Shown: positions 1 to 63,730 of the stretch, piece after piece
Position numbering within the stretch: position 1 is the first letter of the stretch
Layout of the letters: each line of letters opens with the position of its first letter
NCBI RefSeq assembly: GCF_037975245.1
Contig: NC_092569.1
Location: 29,162,168 to 29,226,167, forward strand
Reading direction: 5' to 3'
Length of the DNA stretch: 64,000 nt
From: Apostichopus japonicus
Taxonomy: Eukaryota; Echinodermata; Holothuroidea; Aspidochirotida; Stichopodidae
Notes under the pieces: generated by a model
The model's database searches: none
What the model was told of the DNA's origin: nothing
The model's input: only the letters and a program-made list of their open reading frames with translations
Translations under genes and position numbers: made by a program

Positions 1-249
1 CTAAGGGCTATTGTGAAGGTTATGGTACGTGAAGAGTGGAAGAAACAACGGGGTCCTCAGTCTGAATGTAAAACACACCTGGTGTGTCTGTGTCTGTTTA
101 GAGTAGTTTTGAGGAGCTGGGGGGGGGGGGGTTGAATTTGGGTTATCTGTGACGTTTCTGTTTGCTGATATGGATGATATATTTGCTGAACTCCAATGTG
201 TTTGTTAGTTTTGATCCTAATATCAAGTACTTATTGGAAAGAACCGTAT
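1..249. other. 3' flank of FReD copy 1 (segmental duplicate of 53333-53580)
   Basis: No coding sequence is visible. It matches 53333-53580 with about six substitutions and a slightly different G-run (near 121-133). It probably contains the 3' UTR, but no clear AATAAA is seen on the minus strand. The duplication extends left of the window. Confidence 0.6.
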
Positions 250-518
250 CTAGACGGGTCTTATCTTCATTTCTGTGTATTTGATGTGAAATTCACCTCC
301 AGGTAGTTCATACCAGCTTATGCTTGATTTATCATCATCTGCTGCCATATAGTTACCATTGAGGTTTGATAACCCACAGTTCTTGTACCACCAGGCACCA
401 TGCTTACTATCAGCACAGTTAATACGGCTTGATCTATCATTGTCCCTGTCAAAGGTAGTGAAGTCACATGTAAGATGAGAACTCAAAGCATAACCACCAG
501 GGGGACCTCCATCTATGT
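250..518 (-). CDS. FReD copy 1 exon 8: C-terminal FReD (P subdomain, ligand and Ca site) and stop
   Basis: Acceptor TTCACAG; the split Asp codon is completed by AC. It encodes DIDGGPPGGYALSS, then FTTFDRDND (calcium-binding loop), INCADSKHGAWWYKNC (last disulfide and ligand pocket), and ends KYTEMKIRPV stop. An extra cysteine in HLTCDF is absent from copy 2, giving five cysteines in the domain. About 31 of 89 residues differ from copy 2, although the flanks are almost identical. Confidence 0.92.
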
Positions 519-3500
519 CTGTGAATTAAACAAGTAAAGATATTCCCTTAGACTACAATCCATCACAATTAAGGGACCTATCACAATATAGACACATTAA
601 ACAATTAGTAAATATGATTGGATATATTAAGTTGAATCTGGGCAGTTCCGTAAACTCGGACGTACATTTCGGATAGTTTATTGGTTCATATCTCAATGAG
701 TTAACTTTTGAGATAACTTTTAATTTGGACATTGTGTGTCATCTGCCTTCCAATATTATTCTGTGGGGTTTTCATTTTTTACCTCCTTATAAGCCGCACA
801 AAATTGTTAAAAAAAAAAACACCCTGTGACGGACGTACTTAGAAAAAGTGTTTTTTTTTCAGATTGTAAATCTTATTGTAGATCGCTGGGATATGGAATG
901 TTAAACAATTAAAAGCTTACATGTATCATGTTAATAAGACCTTAAACTAGAATAAGCAGTAAACTCAAATTTAAATTTGATCACCTTCATGGGATATTTT
1001 TGCAAAGTTCTTGTGTGAACGACATACATTTTTTTATGATGGATTTACATCTGCAAATTGTACATCCGTCACAACACAATTGAGTTCCAATAAAGCAAAG
1101 TTTAATTTGTATATTGTAACGTAACTCCCTCTGTTTCACAACTATTATTCTTACAACCTTGCAGCATGTTCTGTAACTACGGATGACAATTTATCTCAAT
1201 ACTATACAGTACATATATATAGTAGTCAACATAAACCTGACACCTACAGTACAGAGACTATACAAAAAACATACTCTAGCCCTAAACGTTGGGGTAATAT
1301 ATAATTGAAGAATCTCCATTTTTCAACAAAAAACATTTGAACCACGAACCAAAAAAGTTTGGTGAATCCCTGCCAACTAAATTAATCCCTGTTAAAAAAG
1401 GTTTACATAATGAACTTAATAACAACCAAGTCAATGCCACATTCATTCAAATTGGCACCACCGAGTTGGCATCAACAATTCCAAAATATACCAAATAAGA
1501 AATTCATATAATTTGATTCATCCACATTTTTACCACTTAGCTGAGCCGTGCTACAAGATTTTGATCCATGCTGACCTTAATGACCTTTGATCTTTGACAG
1601 TATTAGTAGGTTTTGTACTCACCAAGGGCAACTTACATACAGTGTGTGTGAGATGAGACGCATCCTAGTTAACACCATGTGAGCCTGGCAACAAAGTCTT
1701 CAGTACTTATCAATGTTGACCTCAATGACTTTTTACCTCTTTACAATCAATAAGGGTTACTTATTTTAAGCAAATCTACATTCCACTTCTAAGTCTGTAA
1801 GTGCAAAGTTTACACTACTAAGTTAACCAGGAGCTATTGACCTCAAATGAACTTTGACCTTATGTTTAATCTCTGTGACAGCATACATCAAATATTACTA
1901 CACAGCAGGACATCCATGCTGAATCTCTGTGACAGCCTACATCACAAATATCACTACACAGCAGGACATATATGCTTAATCTCTGTGACAGTCTACATCA
2001 CATATTACTACACAGCAGGAGATTCATGCCTAATCTCTGTGACAGTCTACATCACATATTACTACACATCAGGGCATTTATGCTTAATCTCTGTGACAGT
2101 CTACATCACATGTCACTACACGGCAGGAGATTCATGTTTAATCTCTGTGACAGTCTACATCACATGTCACTACACAGCAGGATATTGATGCTTAATCAAT
2201 GTGATAGTCTACATCACATTATACTACACAGCAGGACATGTAGGCTTAATATCTTTGACAGTCTACATCACAAATCACTACACAGCAGGACATTCATGCT
2301 TAATATCTGTGACAGTCTACATCACATATCACAACACAGCAGGACATGTATGCTAAATCTCTGTGACAGTCTGCATCACATATCACCATACAGCAGAACA
2401 TGTATGCTAAATCTTTGTGACAGTCTACATAACGTGTCACTACACAGCAGGATATTGATGCTTAATCAATGTGATAGTCTACATCACATTATACTACACA
2501 GCAGGACATGTAGGCTTAATATCTTTGACAGTCTACATCACAAATCACTACACAGCAGGATATTTATGCTTAATCTCTGTGGCAGTCTACATCACATATC
2601 ACCGTACAGCAGGCCATGCATGCTCAATCTCTGTGACAGCCTACATAACGTGTCACTACAGAGCAGGATATTTATGCTTAATCTCTGTGACAGTCTACAT
2701 CACATGTCACTACACAGCAGGAGATTCATGCTTAATCTCTGTGACAGTCTACATCACATATTACTACACATCAGGGCATTTATGCTTAATCTCTGTGACA
2801 GTCTACATCACATGTCAGTACACAGCAGGATATTGATGCTTTATCAATGTGATAGTCTACATCACATTATACTACACAGCAGGACATGTAGGCTTAATAT
2901 CTTTGACAGTCTTCATCACAAATCACTACACAGCAGGACATTCATGCTTAATATCTGTGACAGTCTACATCACATATCACAACACAGCAGGACATGTATG
3001 CTAAATCTCTGTGACAGTCTGCATCACATATCACCATACAGCAGAACATGTATGCTAAATCTCTGTGACAGTCTACATAACGTGTCACTACACAGCAGGA
3101 TATTTATGCTTAATCTCTGTGGCAGTCTACATCACATATCACCGTACAGCAGGCCATGCATGCTCAATCTCTGTGACAGCCTACATAACGTGACACTACA
3201 GAGCAGGATATTTATGCTTAATCTCTGTGGCAGTCTACATCACATATCACTACACAGCAAAACATTTATGCTTAATCTCTGTGACAGTCTATATCACATA
3301 TCACTACATAGCAGGACATGCATCTTAATCTGTGACAGTCTACATTACATATCACCGTATATCAGGACATGTTTGCTAAATCTCTGTGACAGTCTACATC
3401 AAATATCACTGTTGTATTTGAGTCATGTTATATCTCAGCTTATCATTGTTAGCAAGTTGTTCTTGTCTTTGTGTGATACCTTAGCATGTCACTGTACGAA

Positions 3501-6500
3501 CATGGTTTCTATGTCTTTTCATTGCTGCATTGACTGTCATTTTGCTCGGTTTATGAACTGCATGTTATGTATTAGCATTTTCACTGTCAGTAGGCCTAAT
3601 TATGCTTGATTTATGTGATGTCTTTACAGATCACAAATGTGGGCCCAACTGGTTCAAAAAGTAATGGGCCCCTCAAATTCGGACCCAAAGAATGTGTCCC
3701 AAAATGCATTTGAGGTGGAAACAAAATGTGGGCAGACCTGGCCCAAAAAAGGGGCTAGGAAGTTTTTAGACCCAGATTGCCCCAAAATTTAGGCCTATAT
3801 GTACGGGCCAGCAATGAACTAACAATTCTAAACCAAATTTGGCTACAATCCAACTTAATGTTGCGGAGTTATTGCAATGTAAAGATTTTTAGGTTTGGCT
3901 CTATAATCTCATTAATATTCATAAGGTCAGCGTCAAAACCAATAGGGCACACCTTCTCATTATAACACACCTAAATATCCATCACTCCATCACGGCGGAC
4001 TTCAGCAAGCGTCACAGACGCACAAAAAACACACACACAAACTTGACTGCATAGGTTCCTCTGCTTCCAGCAAGGAACCAGAAAAATAAATGACATCCAA
4101 AGAAATAAAAAAACAGAACATGACATTTAATAGTACAGTGAAGTTGTATACAACAAACACAGAGAGAAACCTATAGTTTGGACAAACCTGCAGTTCCACT
4201 GTAATTTCCCAGTCCAGACAGTCTGTAATTGTCACTTTCATTGTTGATCCGGAACAAGTCAAACTTAGCGTAGTATGGAGCTCCATGTTTGTTCACCATA
4301 TCGATCCGAAGTTGATAGTCACCTTGATTGGTGAGGTAATACAACTTATCATTTCCCAACCAATATTCATGGTCCAGCACACCAAAGCCTTCCTTATAGC
4401 TGGTCCAGTTACGATAGAAGTCAACGGAGCCATCAACACGACGTTGGAGTACCTGTATATAATGTAAGAATGAAAAGATAATTCCAAATTATTTTCAATA
4501 ACATTTCAATGAGAAAGTGCATTTAACTTCTTTGTAGAACGAACCTAAGGATGACCTGTGAATGAGCAGTAACATAATCTTCCAAATTAAATCCATTCTG
4601 AACTGTAATTCACCCTTCTGTTAAGTGGCATGTTAGAGCAAAGTGAATTTCACCATCTTCTCACCATAGTTGATTGTTCACAGACCATGAATGAAAACTG
4701 TTCTAATGTCTGTGTGTGTAATAGATATTCAGACCAATGTTGGATACTGTTGCTAATGTCTGAACTCTGTCCCATTACAAATAATGGAATCTTACTTTCA
4801 AACTTCCATACTATTTGCTTTGGAACAGAAACACTTTTAATGATTTTGGGCTCAGCTCTGGTTTGAAATGATTACTTCAACAAACCAAAACTGGCCTCAT
4901 TTGCGGAGAGAATGGGCCTAGTATTGCGACAGACAGATTGCTTTTGTAATAAACTCTAAATCTATATCAAGAGAGCAAACCATCTACTCTGAATCTACTC
5001 TGACAATCCCCAATTCATAGACAATGGAATCAAACACTGCAATGATCTCAAGTGGACTTCTGGAGGTTCAAAGTTAGTAAAAGAAAAGTAAGAAGTAGAA
5101 ATTACTGGAAGTTTATTGTGTCAGAACTTGTTTCTTATTCCAACGGATGTTTATTTGTTTCTAGCAAATTCACTGCCACTTCAAATGTAGACCCATAGGT
5201 AGGAACAGAACCCCTGACCATTGCGTCACAAACTAATTCCGTACCAATCGACCAAAGTGATCCTGTTGACCAGTGTGAATGCGTAATATTAAAGGAACTG
5301 TCAATGAGAATGTGTGTATAACTATTGTACAGAGCACACTTCTGGTGCTTATAATCTGACAATATCCACAGAATAACGACACTTTGGAGGCAAACTTAAC
5401 GATATTTATGACATAGGATATCATACTAGAATTAAGGTCCATCCTCCTCCGTCAGTCATATTATACATATACAATATATCGTCTATACTATAGGATGTCA
5501 TACTAGACTTACCGTCCATCCTCCTTCAGTCATATTATACATATATACAATATATCGTCTATACTATAGGATGTCATAATAGACTTACCGTCCATCCTCC
5601 TCCGTCAGTCATATTATACATGTACAATATATCGTCTATACTATAGGATGTCATACTAGACTTAGAGTCCATCCTCCTCCATCAGTCATATTATACATAT
5701 ACAATATATCGTCTATACTATAGGATGTCATACTAGACTTACCGTCCATCCTCCTCCGTCAGTCATATAACATACAATATATTGTCTATACTATAGGATG
5801 TCATACTTGACTTACCGTCCATCCTCCTCCGTCAGTCATGTTACAGAAGACATCAAATGAATCCCCATTCCAGTTAGTTGGTTTGATTGTGTAGATGCCA
5901 TCGGTTGTATTACCAGCATTGAAGACATCCAAGCAGTCTTTCATCTAATAATTACATAACAAGTTACTTAATAGCAAGCAGGCAATCCATGAAGTGACAT
6001 ATCTTATCTTATTATGGATAATATATGACCTTTGACAGCAGTACACGATCATTCAGCTTTTTCTTCATACTTTTATTGGAGTATTAAAATAGCAAACAAA
6101 AATCCTACAGAACAATATCCTGAATGAGGAAGAAACATTAACGTCACATTGAAAGGTGTTTCCTCATCCTATATACACTGCAATGGACAGACATTTTGTT
6201 TGGTGGTAATTCATACAATCTGGAAGCATTGATGCCTTGAAACTTTGTGTCAAATGCATTGCAAATCTCTGACGATTCTAAGCTATAACAAACCGAATGT
6301 TCTAATTGGCTCTACTGATAGTGTTGATGATGCCAAGATTCATGAAATGCCAATCACAACATCAAGCCTTCTCTCCTACAAAGATGACGTCGTAACCGAA
6401 TAGTGTCATGGGTATCTTAACTATTGGATGACAAAGTGGAAAAAATATCCCAATTTCAGTTTTTTCTTCTATTCATTTACAGTATTCCAAGCTTATTTCT

Positions 6501-9500
6501 TTGCTGTTTCTGTGAGATCTCTCGTCTACACTGGAAGTGATAATTAACAGCCAATATACAGTATTGTACAGCAAGGCAATATCATAATTGCTCATATGTC
6601 ACCATCAAATTTTGAATCTTAAATCTTACTCCTCAAACACAATATTCTCTTACTTCAAAATTGTATGTAATTAAGTATGTAATTCTCACCACGATAGAAG
6701 GATCATCACCAGTAGTGGTTTCCATTGGGGTGGTCTGCACTGATTCGCTGGCTATCGTTAAAACAAGAAAACAAAACAAAAATATCTCGTTTTGCTGACT
6801 CTTTACATCAGGTACGATAATACAATCATGCTGTACTATCTAAGTGTGCTCAAATTTGAAGTACTTCAGACAGATCCTTTTAGAGATCAGCTCTGATAAA
6901 TACATACATCCACGTCAAGAGTAGGGCAACAGTAATATTGCTTGTCCATGCATACCAAAAGCCTACATGTATGTACGTCTCATGGCTTGTCTACCGTGCC
7001 AGCGTATTGACAAATTCTACCAACAATTCCACACTCTTAAAACATCCGGATCAAATTTGATTCATTCCGGATCAAATTTGATCCGGTTTCCGGATCCCAG
7101 GGGCACCGACCCCGTCCGGATCAAAATGATCCGGATTTCCGGATCAAAGAACAATGACCCCATTCCGGATCAAATTTGATCCGGCTTCCGGATCCCAGGG
7201 GCACCGACCCCGCCCGGATCAAAATGATCCGGATTTCCGGATCAAAAAAACAATGACCCCATTCCGGATAAATTTGATCCCGTTTCCGTTTCAAGGGTAC
7301 TTACGTTTTGGATATGTTATGAATAAGAAACAACATACAAATCTCAATAACTTGGCCATGTCTTTATTCTTTTTAACAACTTCGTTAACAAACAACTTCA
7401 ATTATTTCTACTTATAAAAAGAGGTTGATTTGGGTTACAATACTGATGAACAAAAGCGGAAATGGAAAAGTGGATGGAATGCGAGAGTTTTATCAAGGCA
7501 GCAAAAGTGTATACTATTTTTAGTTATATCCCTGTTATATATGTGACTTGTGACTTGTTGTGGCAATTTATGTGTAACTTTTTGCTTTTAAAAACTTTAT
7601 TTTCTAACTAGAATGTCTATGTCTTATGCTTTAAAATCTCCACTAAAGATATCCTACAATAGGTACAAATGTTAGAATATGCTTAAAAGAGATCATCTCC
7701 TGCTAACTTTAACCTTTGAAATCTACATATTGCAGGATAATGAAAAATTCTGAAAAATACTACTCCACCAGCCTCTCAACGAATGGTCTTACATTATTAA
7801 CCAAATAATGATACTTTGATGTATTTTGGTTTGTTACAAATAACTTAGTACTATAGAATGACACAACTTTGATATTGTACAACTTAACAATGGGTAAGAC
7901 TTTAAAATTGCATGCACAAAATCTTTGTTACATACAGCAGAAATGATAGAGATGTGATTTGTCATGGGAATAAGAAAATGTTTGTAAAAATAATTTCCTT
8001 ACTATGTTTACCTTTGCAAAATTTTATTAAATATTAATTGCATCGAATGTTCTATGTATTAAAATAAATGAAAATACTTTGAAAACTTAAGTATTTTACT
8101 GAACTACCAACATGTTTGGAAATGAACAAGTGCTTGAATTATCACGTATGAATGCTTGATGATGTTTCTCTTGTTACTTTAAGTGGCATAAGCAGGTTTT
8201 AGTTGGAGGAGGTGGTGGGGGCTGGTTAAGTTACCAATGCATCTCTCACTGTTTATGCTAGAAAAAACACCATCCCTCTATTCATCTTTAAAATCTGAAC
8301 AGCTCACACATAACAATGAGGAATTTTTGCAATTAAATTATGCAACCGGCTCACCCAAACTATTCCAGTGCAATTTGACCTGTCAATATTGAACATGAGT
8401 GGACAAACTGAACTCAAACTATGATAAATTTGTTATCTAAGATAATGTGATATCCATTAATACCATGACGGGTAAAAAAAGGTGATGATTGCTCAGTCTT
8501 CTGGTTCAGAAAGTTCTCAAAAAGTCCCAGGTGTTGTATCATTCTATTTCTCATGTATAATTGAATTCAAGTATTTTAAAACATATGTCAACTGTCTGCA
8601 GAAGTCATTGGCAAGGTAGCCCCTTTTTTTCAACTCTACTAAACACCTGCTCTGGTTGCTCTCTTGGTCGTCATGCCAAAACGAAAGGCTGTGGCTGTTG
8701 AACTTTTTCAAGGACAGATGGTATGTTTGTGCCAATCTATTGAAAAGATATATGAGAAATTACACATTTTTGTTTTCAAATTGCAACATTCTGACATACA
8801 AGGATACAACCATACATTGCCACAATTTTAAAATTTTGCAACCAGCTCCTCCTCATCATCATCTTCACCAACACCAACACCAACACCACCACCACCACCA
8901 CCACCACCACCATCACCATCACCATCATCACCATCATCACCATCACCATCACCATCATCATCATCATCATCATCACCAACACCTCCATCATCACCACCAC
9001 CACCATCTTCACTATCATCATCACCACCACCATCACCAACACCATGCATCATTATCATTGTGATTCTCAATCATTTCATAACCGTTAGGTCATTCTCTCT
9101 GAGAAACATATATGATTTTAAGAATGTGAGGCAACCTTCGTTAACTTAAAGTACTATAAATAGTAGAGTCATAAAAGAAAGAGAAAAAGCAGATTTGCAT
9201 GATTTTGAAGCTCAGTAAAATTGCAATCAACCTAACAGGTACCCAAGGAAAGGCTAGAAAAGGACTAGCAAAACACTCATACCATACTCTTATGGCCCAA
9301 TTAACGTTGATATATTATGTGTAGCCTACAACATGGCATTATTCACTCTTCTTAAGTCTTACAGCAACAGTAAGCTTAGCGCACTTCAGTTTGGGTTCCT
9401 GTTCGCCAAGTGACTGAGCTAGAATAGCACATGTATTGAGTAAAACTCTTACCATGCCATCTGTTGTGTATTTTCTGAGAGAATATCTCCCACAGAACTC

Positions 9501-12500: not shown

Positions 12501-15500
12501 ACCTCCAGTTTCCAATGCTCTGATTTTGCTCTCTCTACTGTACATCCTTAAGATGTAATGTCGGAATTTTGTTATTTGTCAATGTTATTAACACATTTCA
12601 GATCCAAAAAGTGTAACAAAAATCAATAAAAGACAATGTGGCAATGGTCTCAAAGAAAGAGGCTCAGGTGAACTTGTAAGCATGAATCCTTCCTTCTTCC
12701 CTTGGATAGGAGACCTCCCGTCACATTGTAAATAGTGATGAAAAAAATAAATATACAAATACAAATACTTAACATCTACATTTACTGTACCTTCCCTGAC
12801 AGTCGAGCCAGTTGTTTCACCACTTGAAGTTTGCTTTGGGGTGGTCTCCACAGGTTTGCTTGAGTACAGATTGGTGGCTATCAGTTGGTCAAAATAAATG
12901 TGAAAGGAAATAAAACACTGATTAAGAGATTTAAAAGTTGTTATTGGAAAGGTTTGAAAGAGCAGGTATATATGTATATATACTAATACAGACATTGAAC
13001 AGTTTTAACCAATTATGCAAAGTTATAAATGGAGAAATAATTTTACATGACACATGTGACATAGCTTAACGAGTAGGTCTTCGTGCATCGTTAATATATG
13101 TAGTTCAAGTGTGCAGGGGTCAGTTGAAAGACTATATGGGTCTTTACCACTGTTAAAGATTAAGTCATAACAGTGGAGTAGGGTTAGGTCATGTCGGTCA
13201 GTCGGGTCACGTCGTCAGTCGGGTCACGTAGGTCAGTGTGGTCATTGTCTGTCAGTTGGGTCACGTCGGTCAGTCGGGGCAGTGAGCAGCTAGCTTAAAG
13301 GATGGCTTAGGTACAGTATTAATGTTGATATGTTGTAGACTATTTAAACATGTATATATTTCTATCAATCAAGGTTGTAATTCTATTTCACAGTGGTAAT
13401 CATCTGAGTCTCATTAATTAAAGTGGCTGGACTAAGTAGTCTAACATGCAGAGACCATTGTTAAGTCAGTTCAGGTCGCGATACAATACAAAAACGTGAT
13501 AAAACACATGTACAATGTTGTGGCCTCTAATAATACGTAGTGAAACTTACAAGGAGTTAGAGTTTGTCATGGCAAAAATGGTGTTTAATAAAGACAACCA
13601 AGGATGCCATGCTGTTTATATCAACACAATTCAGATCCAAAAAGTGTAACAAAACTCATTAAAAGACAATGTGAAAATGGTCTCAAAGAAAGAGGCTCAG
13701 GTGAACTTGTAAGCATGAATCCTTCCTTCTTCCCTTGCATATACCTAACATCTACATTTACTGTACCTTCCCTGACAGTCGAGTCAGTTGTTTCACTACT
13801 TGAAGTTTGCTTTGGGGTGGTCTCCACAGGTTTGCTTGAGGACAGATTGGTAGCTATCAGTAGGTGAAAATAAATGTGAAAGGAAATAAAATACTGATTG
13901 AGAGCTTTAAAAGCTGTTATTGGAAAGGTTTGAAAGAGCAGGTATATATGTATATATATACCAGTACAGACATTGAACAGTTTTAACCAATTATACAAAG
14001 TTATAAATGGAGAAATAATTTTGCATGACACATGTCACCTAGCTTAACGAGGACGTCTTCACGCATCGTTCATATATGCAGTTCAAATGTGCAGGGGTCA
14101 GTTGAAAGACTATATGGGTCTTTATCACAATTGAAGATTAGGTCATAACAGTGGAGTAAGGTTAGATCATGTCGGTCAGTCGGGTCACGTCGTCAGTCGG
14201 GTCACGTAGGTCAGTGTGGTCATTGTCGGTCAGTTGGGTCACGTCGGTCAGTCGGGGCAGTGAGCAGCTAGCTTAAAGGATGGCTTTAGGTACAGAACTA
14301 ATGTTGATATGTTGTACACTATTTAAAAATCTATATATTTCTATCAGTCAAAGTTGTAATTCTATTGCACAGTGTGTACGTATGAAAGATACAACATAAC
14401 ATGATCACAAACGAGTCATATATGTGCTAAAAGTGATGCAAAAGAGAAGCTTCTTTATTTAATGTTACCGCAGCCCCTTTACCCTTTATACCCACATATA
14501 TTGCACGCCTATTTTGCAATGGTAGGTTCATTGGCAATGACGTGACGCTACCGTAATCAACTTGTTCCAAAAGTTGCCTTTCCTTATGCTCAAACCATGT
14601 CTGAAATCACAAAATTGACCAACTACAGATGCCACACAAAATGGCCACCATCACACTGCATACTTCTAATAGATCTTGATATTTTATCAATTCTTAAGAC
14701 AGCAATATCCTGTTCATAATTGCTAGCACAATTTACTGTAGCAAATTATGGTCACCAAAATTTCACTGAATGTTGTACTCAAAGTGGTGCATTAAAGTAT
14801 TCTATATATTTGAACTTTAACCAACTAATAAAAGAAATTGATTAGGATAAACTTTTATAAGCTGAGACTATTACAACACAAGAAAATAGTTAAGGGGAAT
14901 ATCAAAGTATAAGGGCCCTGTGGGTAGGGATGCACCGGATATCCGGTCCGGCCGGACTATCCGGCCGGATAGTGAGCAATTATCCGGTTCCGGTTTTTGA
15001 AAAATATCCGGCCGGATCTTTTTCAAAATTTGGCCTGAAATATTCCTTAAAAAGGTGTTGGTATTAAATCAATGTAAACTATTTCCAAAAATTAATAAAA
15101 ACACTCAAAGTAAGTAAAAAATTTGGTTTAACATGTTTAATTTAATTTTCTCAATGGTCTGACCCAGTTTCTAAAGATCAACCAAAATAATACAACTACT
15201 GTAATAATATAAAACTATATACAACAAATACAGTTTGCAGTGAAATCATTTCTTGCAGACTTCATCAGTTTAATGTTGTGCAGTTAAAATAGACCATTCA
15301 TGTACTTATCAGTCAAAATACTGTTCCATTGAATCTTTACTTTCCCATTATTGTTGGCATTCATGTTTTCTCTGAATTTTATGTGTGAAACAATCTCTTA
15401 TATGGTTAAATACATCTGATTATTTTTTAACAAACATGTGCATTAGGACCTTAGGAGGTCAAAACAATGGATCTTTTTGTGGACCACTACAGTCCATTTC

Positions 15501-35110: not shown

Positions 35111-36050
35111 TCAAAATCCGGTCACAATTTGTGATCACAAAGTGTTGGCTATAACGTTGGTTACTTTACGGGTACATGTAGGACCACAATTACTTGGACT
35201 ACTTGAGCCCAATCTTGCTTGATAATATTATGTGTATTGTCATATACCCAAAGCAAAGAACCACAGTGCCCTTGGGCTCTTGTTTGTCTCTGTCATCATT
35301 TAGTCCCAAAAATACAATTTTGAAGCAAAACAGATTCAATCTATTTCACAAATTAAGCATCCATTTAATCAATTCAAATTCTTCTTACAAAAGGCTGGCA
35401 GGTGTTTACAGAGGCACTGTCCCTTCTTAGCTTAACCACAGACTGCATCACATCCAGACACACCGTTAGCTAGGCTGTTCGAAATGGAACCAAGCGATTT
35501 AAGAAAAATGGCCAGTTCAACACCAAAGCATTTCAAGCTTTAATGTTCTTGATAAACATCTCAGCATGAAACCCATGGGAGGATGATTAAGGTGGTTGAT
35601 ATTAGAGAATATGGAATAGGAATATGGCTGGTAGAATATCAATCTTGATGAATATTTAAAAGTAGAATATTAGCATATATCTATCAAATGTGCTCAAATG
35701 ACACGTAATCATTAATACATTGTGTGCTTGGGCAGGGAACTTTATCTCCATCGCCTCTCTTCACCCAAGTGTATAAATGGGGACTTGCGAGGTTACTTGT
35801 TAATATAGTTGCCTGCGCCTGTTTGTGGCTGCACCCTATGGGAATTCCCCAGGGGACACGTAGATGTGGTGCACTGTAGTGCCCCAGGAAGGATTGCTTG
35901 AATTGTGCACACGTTGGTGTGTGGGTGTGACAAGTAACCAATGAGTTATGTGAGGAGGTCTTTGGTCTCAAACAAGACTGTAAACCTTCAACTTCATAAT
36001 TCCTCTAATCTTTTCCAAGCAAATTTTAAAAAGAAGAAACCTTGCAATAA
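35111..36050. other. 3' flank of the RidA-like gene, no gene seen
   Basis: Contains an open minus-strand frame at 35684-35971 that is not recognised and has no plausible start context or family resemblance. Otherwise AT-rich. Confidence 0.4.
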
Positions 36051-36051
36051 T

Positions 36052-36084
36052 TTAAAGCTCAACAGTATTTTCAATGAGAAGCTG
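36052..36084 (-). CDS. RidA-like exon 6 and stop
   Basis: Acceptor ACCTTTAG in phase 0. It encodes QLLIENTVEL stop, in register with the family's C-terminal GALVEIEAVAL strand but poorly conserved. Confidence 0.6.
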   Translation of the reverse strand, partial: QLLIENTVEL

Positions 36085-39000
36085 CTAAAGGTGCCTTGAG
36101 AAGTTTCAACCATTAAAAAAGCATTTCCAGATATGGAGAGAGCTGCAAGCTGGACTGTTCAATGAACTAAACATGAAATTACAATGTAAAATACTGAATT
36201 TTTCCTGAGAAATTCCAAATACTGCTACCCATATAACACTTACCAATAAAAGGCCAGCTACTTTAAATGCTGAACTGGCAGGGAAGCTTTTGGGAAAATC
36301 TGTAAATTTAGAAAAAGAAATATGACAATCTTAATATTTCAATTCAAATTTAGGTCAAGCTGGTTGTGTTTGCAAACATATCGTTTGTCGTAATAATTGG
36401 CTTACAGGACAATAAATATACCGACAAATGTTATAGTCACTTGCACAAAGATGGAGACCAATTCTAGTACTGTCGGTATTTGAAGAATTCTTGATATGTA
36501 TATTAATACATCCTGATGTACAGCGATATGCAACAGGCCAATCACTGACTTGCATAGATATGTCACAGATATTACACAACGAACACCAACTATCTGTCAT
36601 TACGTCACAAATCTACTGTATACTATACTAAAGCTATAAGAGAACTACACAGCACCACACAACAACATACGATACATACTATCAATCTGCAGTTTTTTTT
36701 TAAGTTTGTTTTACGGTCACTAGCCTTGACGAACAGTGTTCTTTTTTCTAGAGTCCATCGTATGTAATATTATGTAATTCTTTGTTCTAACTTCTTTTGT
36801 CAGTGAGTTATGTACATATAAGAAATAAATTGACTTGAATTCAATTGAATCGAGTACATACTAGACACAACTCAAAGCTCAACATTTAACCTACCGTATG
36901 TCTACAAACTTACAGTATCAGAGCAGGTGACCTTCGCAAGTTCAATTCAAACCAGATCACTCTGATAGTGAGTTTGTCAGTATGATGCAAGTGATAAGGA
37001 TGTTAAGATTACTAAGAAATGACTAAGTAAGATTAGACAAACTTACACTGTCTGTAGACTTCATTCATTTTGGAAAAGTCATTGAGATCTGTGAGAAACA
37101 CTGTCGCTTTCACCACTAGGAGAAAAAGGGAAAAGGAACAATTTTTTTTCATATTGATTGCAAATCAGAGATTATTCACAAAGTGAAGTTGGTCTATTCT
37201 GTGTAACAAATTTAATGCTTCTTTAGAAGCTCCACTCAACATCTTCATAGGACAGCCCTTGGTTTCGAAGAACTCTGCCAATGTTGTTAAACGTCGTTAA
37301 ATGTTGTTAAAAATAAATCGTACAGAATGTAGGATATTGTCTGCTTCTGATAATAATTTCTTTCAAGCCTTAAAGAGCTCTATAATCCAACGGTTTCTCA
37401 AAATTTGGGAACATTGGCTCAGTAATGCTGCAGAATCTCAATAAGTATCTAACTACTCCTTGAGTAACCAGAACAAAGCAACTGAGCAAATTTTGTCAGA
37501 TTTGGATTAAATAACATAGATGTGAAATGTCATCGCAATTATTCTTTAGGATGTCGGCTGTAAAACTTACAATTGCTACAGTACCAGAAATGCGGCATTA
37601 CTCTCAAGCTTTCACACTTCTCTAAGCCTACAGCAAGCAATAATATGCTGATATTACTATTGGTGGTAAACGACTACAACAAGTCAATAGATTTTTTGGC
37701 GTATATATAGATCATGAACTTAAATGGTGTTACCACACTACAACTGTCTGTAAAAAAGTTACACAAAACACCGGTGTTTTAGCTAAGCTTAAGCATTATC
37801 TGCCACAACACATTTTAAAGATTCTCTATCAGACATTAGTCCAGCCACATATTACATATTATTGTAACATATGGTCTGGTACTAGATATACCAATCTGAA
37901 TCCCATTTGTATTACACAGAAGAGAGCTGTCCGCCATATAACACATGCCAAACCACGGGACCACACAAATCCTCTTTTTAAGCGTTCTAATTTGTTAAAA
38001 ACTGATGACATTATTTGGGTTAACCTTGCTACATTTGCTTATAAGGCATGGAATGGACTGTTACCAAATGCTTTTAATGACTACTTAATATGTAACAGTG
38101 ATATTCATCATTACAATACCAGATTTTCAGGCAATGCATATTATAACAGGTATATATCTACAATGGGGATGTTATCACTAAGGGCACGTACAATCAAAAC
38201 ATGGAATTCTCTATCAGACAATATTACAAATAAACCTTCCGCAAAATCATTCAGAAGAAACTTTATTCAAAAAATTATTGCATCTTAATTGAACATGAAC
38301 ATGTTCATTTTTTCTTATATATTTAGTTTACTTTTTCCTTTTCTTTACAGGGAGTCCTCTACTTTGTTAACCATCTGAAGGTTTTTTAGAGGACTTCCTA
38401 TCACATTGTATATATTCACGTGATAAACAAATAAATCAATCAATCAATAATATGACAATGTGATTCTGAAAACATTTACATTTTTCAACCAGTTATTTTC
38501 TCCTCTCCAGTCCCGGGTGTAACTGCACAAGTTGTTACTGTATACTTATTAGTTATTCAGGTCACAAATTAAAACACTTTCATTCTTAGACAACTTAACT
38601 TTAAAGTTAGTACCCTAATGACAATTTTCTCCGTACACATAACTTTGTGAATCGGTTTCCTTCCTATCAACTTTCACAGTAATGACTTAACTTCTGCCGC
38701 CGTTGTTGATAGAGCAGAATTCTAATCTACCAGTTGTACATGCACAACAACAACAATAAATTCTCTCAGCAATTAAATTATCGTAAATCTTGGTTCCTAA
38801 TTTTGTGCAAAGAAAATTGTTTCGAAAGTTTGAATATTAGGCACTGGCCTACATTGCTGGAATCTTACAAATTCTTCTTTAGTCAAACAGGCTTCTCAAA
38901 TGTATGAAAGTTTATTGTGTAGAACAAATTAATAGCATTAATTTAATACAGAGAGTCATGCAGTGAGCGTGTACTGTGCACTTACTTGCCGAGTCTCAGC

Positions 39001-46559: not shown

Positions 46560-49500
46560 CTCTCTTCTGGGGGCCCATTTCTATTGCTGCACCAGGGCTA
46601 GATCGCGCCCTGCGGTACCACTGGTGGGACTGTGGCAGGAAGTGGGGAAAGGGGAGGGGGAATTTATATTGTTCCATCAGGCTAGATCACGCCCTGCAGC
46701 ACCACTGGTGAGCCTGTGGCAAGTGTGGGAGAAGGGGAGGGGTAATTTCCATTGCTGCATCAGGCTAGATCACGCCCTGCAGCACCATTGGTGGGACTGT
46801 GGCGGGGAGTGGGGGAAGGGGAGGGGGATTTCTATTGCTGCATCAGGCAAGATCGTGCCCTGCAGTACCACTGGTGGGACTGTGGTAGGGAGTAGGGAAG
46901 GCGAGGGGGATTTCTATTGTTGCATCCGGCTAGATCACGCCCTGCAGCACCACTGGTGAGCCTGTGGCAAGTGTGGGGGAAGGGAAGGGGTAATTTCTAT
47001 TGCTGCATCAGGCTAGATCACGCCCTGCAGCACCACTGGTGGGACTGTGGCAGGGAGTGGGGAAGGGGAGGAAGGTTTCTATTACTGCACCAGGACTAGA
47101 TCGTGCCCTGCAGCACCACTGGTGAGCCTGTGGCAGGGAGTGAGGAAGGGAAGGGGGATATTCTATTGCTGCATCAGGCTAGATCGTGCCCTGCGGTACC
47201 ACTGGTGGGACTGTGGCAGGGAGTGGGGAAGGGGAGGGGGATTTCTATTGCTGCACCAGGACTAGATCACGCCCTGCAGCACCACTGGTGAACCTGTGGC
47301 AGGGAGTGAGGAAGGGGAGGGGGAATTTCTATTGCTGCACCAGGACTAGATCACGCCCTGCATCACCACTTGTGAGCCTGTGGCAGGGAGTGGGAAAGGG
47401 GAGGGGGAATTTCTATTGATGCATCAGGCTAGATCGTTCCCTGCAGCACCACTGGTGGGACTGTGGCAGGGAATGGGGGAAAGGGAGGGGGAATTTCTAT
47501 TGCTGCATCAGGCTAGATCGCGCCATGCGGTACCACTGGTGGGACTGTGGCAGGGAGTGGGGGAAAGGGAGGGGGAATTTCTATTGCTGCATCAGGCTAG
47601 ATCGCGCCATGCGGTACCACTGGTGGGACTGTGGCAGAGAGTGGGGGAAAGGGAGGGGGAATTTCTATTGCTGCATCAGGCTAGATCGTGCCCTGCAGCA
47701 CCACTAGTGGGACTGTGGGAGGGAATGGGGGAAGGGGAGGGGGAATTTCTATTGCTGCACCGGGCTAGATCGCGCCCTGAAGCACCACTGGTGGGACTTT
47801 AGCATGGAATCGGGAAAGGGGAGGGGAAAATTCTATTGCTGCATCAGGCTAGATCGAGCCCTGCGGTACCACTGGTGGGACTGTGGCAGGGGGGATTGGA
47901 AGGGGAATTTATATTGCTGCATCAGGCAAAATCGTGCCCTGCGGTACCACTGGTGGGACTCTGGCAGGGAGTGGGGGAAAGGGAGGGGGAATTTCTATTG
48001 CTGCATCAGGCTAGATCGCGCCATGCGGTACCACTGGTGGGACTGTGGCAGGGAGTGGGGGAAGGGAAGGGGTATTTCTATTGCTGCATCAGGCTAAATC
48101 GTGCCCTGCGGTACCACTGGTGGGACTGTGGCAGGGAGTGGGGGAAAGGGAGGGGGTATTTCTATTGCTGCATCAGGCTAGATCGCGCCATGCGGTACCA
48201 CTGGTGGGACTGTGGCAGGGAGTGGGGGAAAGGATTGGGGAATTTCTATTGCTGCATCAGGCTAGATCGCGCCATGCGGTACCACTGGTGGGACTGTGGC
48301 AGAGAGTGGGGGAAAGGGATGGGGAATTTCTATTGCTGCATCAGGCTAGATCGCGCCATACGGTACCACTGGTGGGACTGTGGCAGGGAGTGGGGGAAAG
48401 GATTGGGGAATTTCTATTGCTGCATCAGGCTAGATCGTGCCCTGCGGTACCACTGGTGGGACTGTGGCAGGGAGTGGGGAAGGGGAGGGGGATTTCTATT
48501 GCTGCACCAGGACTAGATCACGCCCTGCAGCACCACTGGTGAACCTGTGGCAGGGAGTGAGGAAGGGGAGGGGGAATTTCTATTGCTGCACCAGGACTAG
48601 ATCACGCCCTGCATCACCACTTGTGAGCCTGTGGCAGGGAGTGGGAAAGGGGAGGGGGAATTTCTATTGATGCATCAGGCTAGATCGTTCCCTGCAGCAC
48701 CACTGGTGGGACTGTGGCAGGGAATGGGGGAAAGGGAGGGGGAATTTCTATTGCTGCATCAGGCTAGATCGCGCCATGCGGTACCACTGGTGGGACTGTG
48801 GCAGGGAGTGGGGGAAAGGGAGGGGGAATTTCTATTGCTGCATCATGCTAGATCGCGCCATGCGGTACCACTGGTGGGACTGTGGCAGGGAGTGGGGGAA
48901 AGGATTGGGGAATTTCTATTGCTGCATCAGGCTAGATCGCGCCATGCGGTACCACTGGTGGGACTGTGGCAGGGAGTGGGGGAAAGGATTGGGGAATTTC
49001 TATTGCTGCATCAGGCTAGATCGTGCCCTGCGGTACCACTGGTGGGACTGTGGCAGGGAGTGGGGAAGGGGAGGGGGATTTCTATTGCTGCACCAGGACT
49101 AGATCACGCCCTGCAGCACCACTGGTGAACCTGTGGCAGGGAGTGAGGAAGGGGAGGGGGAATTTCTATTGCTGCACCAGGACTAGATCACGCCCTGCAT
49201 CACCACTTGTGAGCCTGTGGCAGGGAGTGGGAAAGGGGAGGGGGAATTTCTATTGATGCATCAGGCTAGATCGTTCCCTGCAGCACCACTGGTGGGACTG
49301 TGGCAGGGAATGGGGGAAAGGGAGGGGGAATTTCTATTGCTGCATCAGGCTAGATCGCGCCATGCGGTACCACTGGTGGGACTGTGGCAGGGAGTGGGGG
49401 AAAGGGAGGGGGAATTTCTATTGCTGCATCAGGCTAGATCGCGCCATGCGGTACCACTGGTGGGACTGTGGCAGAGAGTGGGGGAAAGGGAGGGGGAATT

Positions 49501-53580: not shown

Positions 53581-53849
53581 CTAGACGGGTCTTATCTTCA
53601 TTTCTGTGTATTTGATGTTATATTGACCTTCAGGTAGATCAAGCCAGAATATGCTTGATAGAGCATCATTTGCTGCCATGTAGTCACCATTGAGGTTAGA
53701 TGTTGCACAGACGTTGTACCACCAGGCACCATGGTTACTATCAGCACAGTGAATACTGTATGATTCATCATTGTCCCTGTCAAAGGTACTGAAGGCATAG
53801 TTAAGATGAAAACTCAAACCAAAATCACCAGGGGAACCTCCATTGCTGT
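53581..53849 (-). CDS. FReD copy 2 exon: C-terminal FReD and stop
   Basis: 269 nt; acceptor TTCACAG. It encodes (D)SNGGSPGDFGLSFHLNYAFS, TFDRDNDES, HCADSNHGAWWYNVCATSNL, and ends KYTEMKIRPV stop. About 16 % nucleotide and 35 % amino-acid difference from copy 1, against ~2.4 % in the 3' flank. Confidence 0.92.
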
Positions 53850-56800
53850 CTGTGAATTAAACAAGTAAAGATATTCCCTTAAACTACAATCCATCACAAT
53901 TAAGGGACCTATCACAATATAGACACATTAAACAATTAGTAAATATGATTGGATATATGTTGAATCTGGGCAGTTCCGTAAACTCGGACGTACATTTTGG
54001 ATAGTTTATTGGTTCATATCTCAATGAGTATTTATATGAGATAACTTTTAATTTGGACATTGTGTGTCATCTGCCTTCCAATATTATTCTGTGGGGTTTT
54101 CATTTTTTACCTCCTTATAAGCCGCACAAAATTGTAAAAAAAAACACCCTGTGACGGACGTACTTAGAAAAAGTGATTTTTTTTTCAGATCATAAACCTT
54201 ATTGTAGATCGCTGTGATTTGGAATGTCAAACAATTAAAAGCTTACATGCATCATCTTTATAAGACCTTAAACTAGAATAAGCAGTAAAATCAAATTTAA
54301 ATTTGATCACCTTCATGCGATATTTTTGCAAATTTCTTATGTGACGGACGTACATTTTTTTGTGACGGACATACATCTGCAAATTGTACGTCCGTCACAA
54401 CACAATTGAGTTCCAATAAAGCAAATTTTAATTTGCATATTGTAACTTAACTCCCTCTGTTTCACAACTATTATTCTTACAACCTTGCAGCATGTTCTGT
54501 AACTACGGAGGACAATTTATCTCAATACTATACAGTACATATATATAGTAGTCAACATAAACCTGACACCTACAGAGACTATAAACAAAAAACATACTCG
54601 AGCCCTAAAATTTGGGGTAATATATAGTTGAAAGAAGCTCCCTTTTACAACAAAAAACATTTGAACCACGAACCAAAAATTTTTGGTGAATCCCTGCCAA
54701 CTAAACTCCATGTTAAAAAAGGTTTACATGATGAACTTAATAACAACCAAGTCAATGCCACATTCATTCAAATTGGCACCACCGAGTTGGCAACAACAGT
54801 TCCAAAATATACCAAATATGAAATTCATATAATTTGATTCATCCACATTTTACCACTTAGCTGAGCGGTACTACAAGATTTTGACCCATGCTGACCTTAA
54901 TGACCTTTGATCTTTTACAGTATTAGTAGGTTTTGTACTCACCAAGGGCAACTTACATACAATGTGTGAGACGCATCCAAGTTAACACTATGTGAGCCTG
55001 GGTAAAAAGTCTTCAGTACTGATCAATGTTGACCTCAATGACTTTTTACCTCTTTACAATCAATAAGGGTTACTCATTTTGGGAAATCTACATTCCACTT
55101 CTAAGTCTGTAAGTGCAAAGTTTACACTACTAAGTTAACCGGGAGCTATTGACCTCAAATTACCTTTGACCTCTCTGTGACAATCTATATCACATATCAC
55201 TACACAGCAGGATATTAATGCTTAATATCTGTGACAGTCTGCACATATAACTACATGTGCAGCAGGACATGTATGCTTAAACCCTGTGACAGTCTACATC
55301 ACATGTCACTACACAGCAGGATATTAATGCCTTATCTCTGTGACAGATATAGTCTGCATTACATACAGTATCACCGTATATCAGGACATGTTTGCTTAAT
55401 CTCTGTGACAGCTTATCAAGTTTTGCTCGTTTTGTGTGATACATTAGCATGTCACTGTACGAACATGGTTTTTATGTCTTTTCATTGCTGCACTGACTGT
55501 CATTTTGCTCGGTTCATGAACTGCATGTGTGTTCATGAACTGCATGTATTAGCATTTTCACTGTCAGTAGGCCTAATTATTCTTGATTTATCTTAACAGA
55601 TCACACATGTGGGCCCAAATGAAAAAAACATGGGCCCCTCAAATTCGGGCCCATAGAATGTATCCTAAAATGCATTTGAGGTGGAATCAAAATTTGGGAA
55701 TACCTGGCCCCAAAAAAGGGCTAGGAATTTTAGATTGCCCCAAAATTTAGGCCTTCATGTACCAGCCAGCAATGAACTAACAATTCTAAACCAAATTTGG
55801 CTACAATCCAACTTAATGTTGTGGAGTTAATGCAATGTAAAGATTTTTAGGTTTGGCTCTCTAACCTCATTAATATTCATAAGTTCAGCGTCAAACCCAA
55901 TAGGGGACACCTCATTACAACACACCTTCTCATTACACACAAACACACACTCACACAAACTTGACTGCATAGGTTCCTTTGCTTCCAGCAAGGAACCGGA
56001 AAAATAAACGACATCCAAAGAAAAAAAAAACAGAACATGACATTTAATAGTACAGTGAAGTTGTATACAACAAACACAGAGAGAAACCTATAGTTTGGAC
56101 AAACCTGCAGCTTCATTATAAGTTCCCAGTTCAGACAGTCTGTAATTGTCACTTTCATCGTTGATCCGGAACAAGTCAAACTTTTTGTAGTATGGAGCTC
56201 CATGTTTGTTCACCATATCGATCCGCAGTTGATAGTCACCTTGATTGGTGAGGAAATACAACTTATCATTTCCCAACCAAAACTCATGGTCCAGCTCACC
56301 AAAGCCTTCTTTATAGCTCTGCCAGTTACGATAGAAGTCAACGGAACCATCAACACGACGTTGGAATACCTGTATATAATGTAAGAACGAAAAGAATAAT
56401 TCCAAATTATTTTCAATAACATTTCAATGAGAAAGTGCATTTAACTTCTTTGTAGAACGAACCTAAGGAAGGATGACCTGTGAATGAGCAGTAACATAAT
56501 CTTCCATATTAAATCCATTCTGAACTGCAATTCACCCTTCTGTTAAGTGGAATGTTAGAGCAAAGTGAATTTCACCATCTACTACCATAGTTGATTGTTC
56601 ACAGACCATGAATGAAAACTGTTCTAATGTCTGTGTGTGTAATAGATAATTAGACCAACGTTGGATACTGTTGCTTATGTCTGAACTTTGTCCCATTACA
56701 AATAATGGAATCTTACTTTCAAACTTCCATACTATTCGCTTTGGAGCAGAAACACCTGCAATGATTTTGGGCTCAGCTCTGGTTTGAAATGATTACTTCA

Positions 56801-59800
56801 ACAAACCAAAACTGGCCTCATTTGCGGAGAGAACGGGCCTAGTGTTGCGACAGACAGATTGCTTTTGTTATAAACTTTAAATCTATATCAAGAGAGCAAC
56901 ACATCTATTCTGAATCTACTCTGACAATCCCCAATTTATAGACAATGGAATCAAACACTGTAATGATCTCAAGTAGACTTCTGGAGGTTCAAAGTTAGTA
57001 AAGAAAAGTAAGATTAAAGAGATGACGTAAAGACCGAAGGGAAGAATATCCATGACAGGTATTGCAACAATCTCCATGGTTACACAATTACATTAGAAAT
57101 TACTGGAAGTCTATTGTGTCAGAACTTGTTTCTTATTCCAACGGATGTTTATTTGTTTCTAGCAAATTCACTGCCACTTCAAATGTAGACCTATAGGTAG
57201 GAACAGAACCCCTGACCCTTGCGTCACAAACTAATTCCGTACCAATCGACCAAAATGATTCTGCTGACCAGTGTGAATGCGTGATATTAAAGGATTTTAT
57301 AACTGTCAATGAGAATGTGTGTATTACTATTGTACAGAGCACACTTTTGGTGCTTATAATTTAACAATATGCACAGAATTGTGAGGCAAACTCAACCATA
57401 TTTACGACATATAGGATATCATACTAGAATTAAAGTCACTCCTCCTCCTTCAGTCATATTATACAATATATACAATATATCGTCTATACTATAGGATGTC
57501 ATACTAGACTTACCGTCCATCCTCCTCCGTCAGTCATATTATACATATACAATAAATCGTCTATACTATAGGATGTCATACTAGACTTACCGTCCATCCT
57601 CCTCCATCAGTCATGTTACAGAAGACATCAAATGAATCCCCATTCCAGTTAGTTGGTTTGATTGTGTAGATGCCATCGGTTGTATTACTAGCATTGAAAA
57701 CATCCAAGCAGTCTTTCATCTAATAATAACATAACAAGTTACTTAATAGCAAGCAAGCAATCCATGAAGTGACATCTTATCTTATTATGGAAAATATATG
57801 ACCTTTGACAGCAGTACACGATCATTCAGCTTTTTCTTCATACTTTTATTGGAGTATTAAAATAGCTAACAAAAATCCCACAGAACAATATGCTGAATGA
57901 GGAAGAAACATTAACGTCACATGGAAAGGAGGTTCCTCATCCTATAAACACTCCAATGGACAGACATTTTGTTTGGTGGTAATTCACACAATCTAGCTGG
58001 AAGCATTGATGCCTTGATTCTTTGTGTCGAATTCATTGCAAATCTCTGACGATTCTAAGCTATTACAAACAGAATGTTCTAATTGGCTCTACTGATAGTG
58101 TTGATGTTTCCAAGATTCATGGAATGTACTTTAAATGCTAATCACAACATCAAACCTTCTCTCCTACAAAGAGTGACATCGTAACCGAATAGTTTCATGG
58201 GTATCTTTACTATTGGATGAAAAAGGGGGGAAAATATCCCAATTTCAGTTTTTTTTCTATTCATTTACAGTATTCCAAGCTTATTTCTTTGCTGTTTCTC
58301 TGAGATCTCTCGTCTTCACTGGAAGTGATTATTTACAGCCAATATACAGTATTGTACAGCAAGGCATTATCATAATTGCTCATATCATCATCAAAATTTG
58401 AACCTTAAATCTTACTCCTCAAACACAATATTCTCTTACTTCAAAATTGTATGTAATTAAGTATATAATTCTCACCACGATAGAAGGATCATCACCAGTA
58501 GTGGTTTCCATTGGGGTGGTCTGCACTGATTCGATGGCTATCGTTAAAACAAGAAAACCAAAAAAATATCTTGTTTTGCCGACTCTTTACATCAGGTACG
58601 ATAATTGAGTTATATACAATCATGCTGTACTATCTAAGTGTGCTCAAATTCGAAGTACTTCAGACAGATCCTTTTAGAGATCAGTTCTGATAAATACATA
58701 CGTCTCATGGCTTGTCTACCGTGCCAGCGTATTGACAAATTCTACCAACAATTCCAAGTATTATGGTATAATACGGTAAACTTGGGATGGTTAGGGCATT
58801 AATTGTTCTCTGATAGGATAGCTTTGATGAAGCTCTCGCTGATTTTTCTATTCTTCAGCTTCAGATTTTCATGGATGGTTTGACCTTTCTCAGAAATAGA
58901 GAGACTTTATACTTGCAAAGGTCGGGAGAATCTAACTGCTCGAAACAAGGAAAAAGTTCCCTTACTTACGGCATGTGTTGAAGTAATTACCGTATAATTC
59001 CCCTGAACGGGTGCAATAACCCACGAAAGTGTCTGAAGATACAAAACTGATGTTTACTCGATCATTGGCAATTTTGGCGGTATCGGCTTTGTGGATTATA
59101 CTTGGGATTGAAAAAAGTGGTTACAGTTTGACTAAAGAGGACAGCGACTACAGTGTATATCACTGCAACTACATATGTATAACACAATACGCGACTTAAG
59201 GGAACACAGGGAGTCACCGTCACAAACAAAACAAGAGGGCAATCTACTGTCTTTGCGTGAAGCTAGGGTGGTATGGTGATTACAGTGAACCCATGCATAG
59301 CTCTGTATCTATAATATTATAGGTCTAACAATACAGGCTAACCATAAAGTTTTCACAGATCTCTACTCTATCAAATTATGGTAACTTTACCCATTTGAAA
59401 GTCATGTCTGTTTCAGTCCCAATAACTGAACATGTACACAGACTTAACGTTTCTCTGGCTGGCAGTGAGCATTTTGTGTCAGTTCACGACTCAAGCTGCA
59501 CAGTTTTAATAATTATTGTAACTAATCATTTTGTCATGGGACATATTTAAAGGAGCACAGTTTGTTAACATAACACAGTTGTTGTCTGTGCTCATTAGTC
59601 ATTCAGTGTGCAGGAGTGTGTTGTAAGACTATGGGTCATCACAACTATGGAAAATTAGGTCATGACAGTTGACGTCAGGCAGGGGGAGGTCAGTCAGGGC
59701 AATGTGGGGCCATCATTTGAGTTTTACAGCAAGAAACAAGCTTCCTCTACTTTCCAATGCTCTGATTTTGCTCTCTCTACTGTACATCCTTAAGATGTAA

Positions 59801-63165: not shown

Positions 63166-63730
63166 CTGTTAAACAGGAATCACATGAAACATTACAGGAA
63201 GAGTTACGATAAAATTTATCAACAAGTTTTATTTTAATTTACAAGCGGGAAATTGTTCTAATTCTTTTCTAAAGTGTGTATAATTCCTGTAATCGTTTTA
63301 AATGATTGAATCAAAATAAAGAAAACTTGTATGCTATGACAGAGAACTAAAGCAAATAATTTTAAATGACGTTTTCAGTCCGAGAAATAACCAGGTAATG
63401 GACCACCTTATTGCTGCAATAGACAGGTAAGCATACAGGGGGGTAGGAAGCTTCCAAAAATGTGAGGGGGGAACAACATCAGAGGGGCACTTTCTCATTC
63501 CATAACCACCACTCGTTATGCTATAAACCGATGCACATGCCGGCCAATGGCCATATCACTTAAATATATATGATGTGTTAGTATGCTATCAATACTGTTA
63601 TGGTGCACATGACTCTATCAACCTACATCTGTACTTCTCTCCATACATAATTTAGAACTTTCCACACAAAAAAAAAACTCCTCCTGTGTTTATTCCTTGA
63701 GTAAAAGTCTTTAGCAATCTCGGTTAAATC

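Follow-up and report, generated by a model that had tools for sequence, protein, structure and literature searches.

What makes a single exon of a duplicated gene diverge far more than the intron and flank that adjoin it? The question is raised by two neighbouring genes of the sea cucumber Apostichopus japonicus with a lectin-like fibrinogen domain (FReD), for which a preliminary description offered two explanations: strong diversifying selection acting on the recognition surface, or gene conversion limited to the exon, with another paralogue as its source. FREPs are the most expanded gene family in farmed A. japonicus and have been tied to regeneration; a tandem cluster of 21 has been described in this species, and FREPs are up-regulated in visceral regeneration (Zhang et al. 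2017, PMC5638244). That report deals with the same species and gene family, its main text treating expansion and regeneration, with the terms 'gene conversion' and 'positive selection' absent from it.

The locus and its two genes

The window, the whole stretch of 64,000 nucleotides that was analysed (contig 9, C9:29162168-29226167), contains two tandem minus-strand genes, A and B, each ending in a three-exon FReD domain (exons E1 to E3). Their features are as follows.

1..249, minus strand: gene A 3' flank, with 6/248 differences from gene B
250..518, minus strand: gene A E3, the last FReD exon, placed by translation and splice acceptor; hypervariable
519..4187, minus strand: gene A intron 2, of which the ~300 bp beside E3 are 2.7% from gene B and farther parts 6-8%
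4188..4452, minus strand: gene A E2, the central FReD exon
5816..5944, minus strand: gene A E1, the first FReD exon, of the MKDC type
6690..6753, minus strand: candidate Thr-rich linker exon of gene A, upstream of E1; limits approximate, by eye
53581..53849, minus strand: gene B E3, the last FReD exon
56105..56369, minus strand: gene B E2, the central FReD exon
57591..57719, minus strand: gene B E1, the first FReD exon

The spliced FReD of gene A fits the Fibrinogen_C profile (PF00147) from position 3 to 220 of 221 (E = 1.1e-66). Its E3 encodes 89 residues and the stop, the first codon being split with E2, and the E3 frames of both genes are open. The candidate linker exon of gene A has a counterpart in gene B at approximately 58476-58538, with a translated match (6782-6636) that is 90% identical. 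Thr/Ser-rich linker-like candidates upstream of E1 were observed at 6636-6782 and 58422-58586 and at 12759-13806 and 60001-61033, one of which occurs twice per gene. No Ig-like Pfam match was found in seven minus-strand frames, chosen by hand from the region upstream of E1 in gene B, where gene models are incomplete.

Both introns of the domain harbour tandem repeats. Around 25 copies of a 54 bp unit lie in intron 2 of gene A (approximately 1843-3438) and are mostly absent from gene B, while a 77 bp repeat occupies part of intron 1 in each gene (5365-5815 in A, 57366-57590 in B). Exon 1 is partly repeated in several of the 77 bp units, which carry its 3' end (NMTDGGGWTV) and then a donor-like GT, and the length of this array is highly variable among the compared paralogues. 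Probing of the window at 35300-37600 and at 60000-63300 found 98% opposite-strand copies of both stretches at C9:28.72-28.75 Mb, and each of the two genes is matched by an inverted counterpart, gene A by A' (L009) and gene B by B' (L035). The inverted copy, which lies 0.4 Mb off at C9:28.72-28.78 Mb, may be a segmental duplication or a misplaced haplotype; the comparison of A with B is unaffected by its nature.

Divergence between genes A and B is concentrated in the last exon

Aligned with its counterpart, E3 (250-518 against 53581-53849) differs at 43 of 269 bases and 31 of 89 residues, exactly as counted by hand in the preliminary description. Its ranking of the neighbouring parts likewise holds: there are six differences over 248 sites of the 3' flank (1-249), three over 128 bases of E1, with one residue changed, and 21 over 265 bases of the intermediate central exon, where 12 of 88 residues differ. 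The figure of 2-3% given for the intron is accurate beside the exon (520-820, 8/295) but not for the farther introns, which differ by 4-8%, nor for the repeat array, which differs by more. The changes were also said to start and stop close to the exon borders, and the first lies at 515, the fourth base of the exon, and the last at 288, with the final 11 codons identical and the closest change in the intron at 551. Relative to the flank and near intron, E3 is strongly over-diverged (Fisher p = 1.3e-11).

The exons also differ in the kind of change they have accumulated, dN/dS between A and B (by NG86, a rough method at saturated codons) being 0.12 in E1, 0.71 in E2 and 2.85 in E3. In the last exon 33 codons are changed, 31 of them as replacements, through 39 nonsynonymous and four synonymous changes (replacement against synonymous, p = 0.026 one-sided). 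The synonymous rate of 4/56.3 (NG86; two codons are strictly synonymous) is about the level of the introns overall, so that the excess sits in replacements. For this pair by itself, selection without conversion is sufficient. Extended to the whole family, such an account would have selection acting alone after duplication, no tracts of E3 being exchanged and any semblance of shuffling being produced by convergence at a few favoured codons. In its favour, the strict synonymous rate between A and B (2/37.5) approximates the 4-8% divergence of the introns as a whole, with replacements several-fold higher.

Replacement changes and hypervariable codons across paralogues

A sample of the genome was drawn by scoring 150 E3-like exons of 839 first-look candidates, mostly on contig 9, and taking 33 among the closest of those scored, which with A and B gave 35 E3s. 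The subfamily thus sampled amounts to approximately 32 FReD loci, three of the 35 E3s (L037, L040, L041) being more distant. Pool statistics refer to 28 of the 35, having omitted these three, L023 and L039 (copies of L022 and L038), and the near-copies L009 (of A) and L035 (of B). The altered 5' ends of L029, L034, L038 and L039 were masked, and L013 was excluded from E2 rates.

In this pool, too, the replacement rate exceeds the synonymous one (piN 0.142, piS 0.087; bootstrap P = 0.009). Mismatch probability is at least 0.5 at 21 codons, and 30 of the 89 are invariant. At the 21 hypervariable codons, which were picked for being variable, heterozygosity at the first, second and third positions is 0.40, 0.52 and 0.21, against 0.057, 0.041 and 0.049 at the others. 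As the adjoining 110 bp of intron has a heterozygosity of 0.02-0.07 within intron types (defined below), the non-hypervariable codons are, third positions included, about as uniform as the adjacent intron, which suggests that the exon backbone is homogenised along with its surroundings and that diversity persists at the selected codons.

Such focal change, with highly variable first and second positions beside invariant codons, might be expected if a mutator, active in the germline or the soma, targeted the exon or particular codons and wrote new pocket codons directly, in the manner of a diversity-generating element. Multi-base changes fit as well, since 46 of the 127 replaced codons in six close pairs carry two base changes and five carry three. 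Selection, however, explains focal replacement, and the near-copy pairs A/A' and B/B' are not accelerated, which leaves such a mutator very improbable.

A predicted ligand pocket at the variable sites

The last exon had been described as carrying the ligand pocket and calcium loop, and alignment with FIBCD1 supports this prediction. Using contacts taken from excerpts of two published accounts (PMC3908420, PMC10825690), in a list assembled after the hypervariable sites were known, hypervariable codons make up 7 of 11 named ligand contacts but only 12 of the 69 remaining sites in the alignment (p = 0.003), and 7 of 12 contacts if Lys390 of site S3 is added (p = 0.006). The hypervariable sites include the equivalents of Tyr405, Arg412, Asn413, Tyr431, Ala432, His396 and Glu398. 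The calcium aspartates and the cysteine pair are kept as stated, the equivalents of Asp393, Asp395, Cys 401 and Cys 414 (sites 26, 28, 35 and 48) being present in 28/28 E3s, so the residues of the calcium site of FReD lectins are in place and a calcium site can be predicted. Together with the dN/dS of 2.85 between A and B and the excess of piN over piS among paralogues, the enrichment at ligand contacts supports the proposal of diversifying selection.

The same excess of replacement over synonymous change per site, in A/B and in the pool, argues against neutral exon-limited conversion, in which whole E3s would be imported from divergent paralogues and their differences would be unselected, as does the enrichment of ligand contacts among the hypervariable codons.

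FIBCD1, the ficolins and tachylectin-5A (TL5A) resemble these proteins, in what the published excerpts give, in having the domain by sequence, both calcium aspartates and the two cysteines, and are unlike them in the S1 pocket, where A and B have other residues in place of Tyr405, His415, Tyr431 and Ala432. The canonical S1 acetyl pocket formed by the equivalents of these four is accordingly absent from both genes: sites 39, 49, 63 and 64 read K/N, G/A, D/A and K/L in A/B, three of the four being hypervariable, and the 28 E3s hold one Tyr at 39, no His at 49, no Tyr at 63 and one Ala at 64. Because most of the canonical acetyl-pocket residues are lost, the ligands are probably unlike those of FIBCD1.

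E3 divergence is largely independent of flank divergence

Across the sample, mean pairwise E3 distances scarcely follow those of the flanks, pN being 0.13-0.17 and pS 0.06-0.09 over mean flank distances of 2% to 26%. Only in the most distant bin (0.3-0.6, 139 pairs), where part of the flank sequence cannot be aligned and the distant subfamily comes in, do the values rise, to 0.29 for pS and 0.20 for pN. The mean number of amino-acid differences is 21-23 per flank bin when pairs with an E3 distance of at most 3% and the three distant loci are excluded, and within the window's subfamily the correlation of flank distance with pN is weak (Spearman 0.20).

Individual pairs make the point more directly, since exon-limited peaks of divergence similar to that of A/B occur elsewhere, mostly at loci whose frames are open. 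Between L011 and L018 the upstream sequence differs at 41 of 4187 bases (1%), E3 at 26 of 264 (10%; 17 replaced codons) and the sequence past E3 by 2-7%; L011/L026 resembles this pair with 2% upstream and 1-3% directly past the exon. Such close-flank pairs could serve as natural experiments to tell selection from conversion. At flank divergences of 0.7-2%, 20 codons are replaced in L011/L026 and 22 in L020/L032, while A/A' and B/B', with flanks at 1-2%, have five and three base differences in E3 and only 4 and 3 replaced codons; the recent duplicate pairs L022/L023 and L038/L039 are identical in E3. Since core close-flank pairs are thus either identical or nearly so, or strongly divergent, E3 distance appears near all-or-none rather than clock-like, a disparity that counts against selection acting alone. 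In the distant subfamily, L037/L041 (C21, C15) is intermediate, with 16 E3 differences (6%) at a flank divergence of 2%.

Eight close pairs are heterogeneous in the number of replacements they carry relative to flank divergence (chi2 35.5, p = 9e-6), the ratio being 1.2 for A/A', 1.4 for B/B', 0 for the two recent duplicates and 3.5-8.7 for the four others; these pairs were hand-picked, without A/B, L011/L026, L018/L030 and L037/L041, and sampling error in the flank counts is ignored. Neutral import of whole exons would also yield exon-limited divergence and pool-level E3 distances despite nearly identical flanks; in view of the signs of selection noted above and the lack of any near-identical donor, detailed below, it is nevertheless judged highly unlikely.

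Control FReD clusters

Ten E3s from a FReD cluster at 32-33 Mb and ten from another at 16 Mb served as controls, compared over their aligned part only (from approximately site 11-20 on). In both, pN tracks flank distance (Spearman 0.42 and 0.58), and none of the nine pairs whose flanks are 2.6% apart or less has more than one E3 residue changed. As these two clusters lack it, the E3 pattern is not general to FReD clusters or to the assembly. In some close pairs of the 32-Mb cluster, at counts of one or two, synonymous rates are in excess of the flanks (for example L049/L052, 0.08 against 0.016, on very few sites), and such an excess is therefore not diagnostic alone.

An artefact of assembly or haplotype, in which collapsed or mis-joined copies give rise to mosaic genes, could draw on the inverted copy, which lies at a distance of 0.4 Mb, matches parts of the window at 98% and might be a misplaced haplotype. 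With the pattern recurring at other loci, mostly with open frames, and missing from the 32-Mb and 16-Mb clusters of the same assembly, this explanation is extremely unlikely.

Uncoupling of E3 from intron type

The end of intron 2 beside E3 falls into two types, X (18 loci) and Y (13 loci), to neither of which L019 or the three distant loci belong. E3 takes no account of this division: X and Y share 66 sites and have no fixed difference, and the between-minus-within distance is 0.0002 (p = 0.44), with some structure left in the 3' flank (0.065, p = 0.0005). Over 29 loci, differentiation between the types is near zero in the interval between -110 bp, relative to the acceptor, and approximately +370, a point roughly 100 bp beyond the stop. 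Among the BLAST matches listed, a segment of approximately 1.25 kb ends homology beyond -110/-120 in A/L013 and A/L015; because zero differentiation begins where this difference ends homology, exchange seems to reach as far as homology does. A reading of the X and Y introns as 30% point divergence was dropped, as BLAST shows presence or absence of the ~1.25-kb segment beside E3 and the alignment beyond it is forced; the 51 'fixed' X/Y intron sites are for the same reason largely structural. The 17 full genes are mosaic upstream as well, combining E1, intron-1 and intron-2 types in several ways. The E1 types MKDC and MTNC are ~22% apart and do not follow the intron types (gene A E1, 5816-5944; loci L009-L028).

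Linkage between E3 sites more than 6 bp apart is 0.036-0.043, where 0.037 is expected from sample size, compared with 0.14-0.31 in the 3' flank and 0.31-0.52 in the upstream 300 bp. The upstream value is high because of the two intron types, being low within X (0.04-0.14 beyond 6 bp), and near-zero linkage in E3 could stem from convergent selection. Some linkage nonetheless remains in E3, as judged from the variance of pairwise differences (p = 0.01) and from shared haplotypes (25 loci; p = 0.015). Rare multi-site tracts recur in genes of both intron types (p = 0.03 and p = 0.016, the second value being the lowest that 60 permutations allow), examples being L038/L027, on different contigs, and L036/L033. 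These tracts, and the lack of structure by intron type, are a further difficulty for selection acting alone. PHI-type tests gave p = 0.02-0.03 at 15 bp and were not significant at 30-100 bp.

Synonymous change offers a second approach to exchange. Strict synonymous differences in six close pairs without near-copies are more frequent in E3 than in flanks (15/263.7 against 80/3259, p = 0.004 one-sided); in the ten closest disjoint pairs the excess is marginal (14/499.5 against 90/5451, p = 0.05 one-sided), and as no close pair is omitted there, this result lowers the odds of selection with conversion and raises those of selection alone. An NG86 pS excess in close pairs (25.7/577.5 against 90/5451 in flanks, p = 3e-5) was rejected as inflated by multi-hit codons.

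A paralogue identical to one of the last exons, the donor for which the preliminary description proposed a search, did not emerge among the 35 E3s, near-identical ones occurring only in the inverted A'/B' or in the two other recent duplicate pairs. Among 32 core E3s, no near-identical exon was found in a differing context, the smallest distance in 347 pairs with flanks more than 10% apart being 6.8%. The proposal of exon-limited conversion is consequently upheld in one part: exchange is supported, less directly, by E3s independent of intron type and by close-flank pairs at pool-level distances, and the donor is missing. Taken together, the sequence patterns point to recombination between E3 and its flanks among loci, with weak support from the PHI-type and strict synonymous tests.

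Selection with exchange of short tracts

The best account, and a probable one, is diversifying selection on the pocket exon together with ectopic conversion, by which short tracts of E3 are reshuffled and the remaining sequence is kept homogeneous; its selection component is firmer than its conversion component, the family data adding exchange to selection with less certainty. Diversifying selection would favour novel residues round the pocket, probably for binding microbial glycans. Ectopic gene conversion among the clustered copies would swap short E3 tracts, and would also homogenise introns, 3' flanks and the exon backbone; in the exchange, either the E3 tract or its surroundings could be the moving part. 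Conversions erasing pocket differences would be selected against, so that divergence between recent duplicates would be confined to the exon. Recognition domains that share a uniform chassis would, in this way, come to form a germline repertoire.

Selection alone retains the A/B synonymous rate, the marginal excess in the ten pairs and the missing donor exon on its side; set against the unequal replacement counts of close-flank pairs and the tracts common to both intron types, it appears unlikely, though deserving of more weight than any other rival. An extension of the favoured account, by analogy, is that the clustered E3s form a mutual donor pool from which short tracts are converted into expressed genes during life, in coelomocytes, giving an anticipatory repertoire; this would be comparable in principle to the gene-converting immunoglobulin loci of vertebrates, and is considered improbable.

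Under the preferred combination of selection and conversion, the observed pattern is that expected of a recognition-protein repertoire, with fairly uniform introns and backbone and about 21 copy-variable positions, many round the predicted pocket, and one that can be read from an assembled genome at 21 named codons. Should the individual proteins prove to bind different microbial glycans, an immune repertoire would, at least in part, be the better reading of the FREP expansion. Few invertebrate recognition-protein repertoires on a constant scaffold are known.

Comparison with other diversified families

One echinoderm parallel, at the level of detail in the excerpts used, is the sea-urchin 185/333 (SpTransformer) family, likewise a clustered and diversified set of immune genes, encoding an unrelated protein. 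Diversity in 185/333 consists of mosaic elements and repeats. The FREPs of Biomphalaria share the fibrinogen domain and membership of a large, diversified invertebrate family. As excerpted, they differ in having IgSF domains (PMC7588048), not seen here in the seven frames searched, and a somatically diversified member (PMC3313920), and the molluscan precedent is best taken as an analogy for sea-cucumber FReDs. In Podospora, the excerpted account of the het-d/het-e WD-repeat genes describes concerted evolution by reshuffling of units together with diversifying selection at few surface codons; the units there are WD repeats within and between genes, as opposed to one exon across separate lectin-domain genes (PMC1805685). 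ASSET, as outlined for snake three-finger toxin genes, similarly involves conserved introns and switched exon segments, with targets thought to change, but swaps short exon segments for distinctly different ones, whereas here separate codons vary on a constant backbone (PMC2474615).

No description of a hypervariable FReD exon in holothurians was found in the titles and abstract beginnings that searches of one open-licence library listed. FREP expansion in this species, selection with concerted evolution (het) and exon-segment switching (toxins) are already known, and no account of the present pattern for holothurian FReDs appeared in those listings.

Further observations concern other parts of the assembly and of the window. 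The full COX1, on contig 35, reads TGA as Trp and has AAA (Lys under table 5) where Asn is conserved, as in the echinoderm code. A second, fragmented set of COX1 matches lies at C29:14745-31219. In the window, an 84 bp tandem array at 47262-50440 has plus-strand frames open for 90-240 codons, which may be chance.
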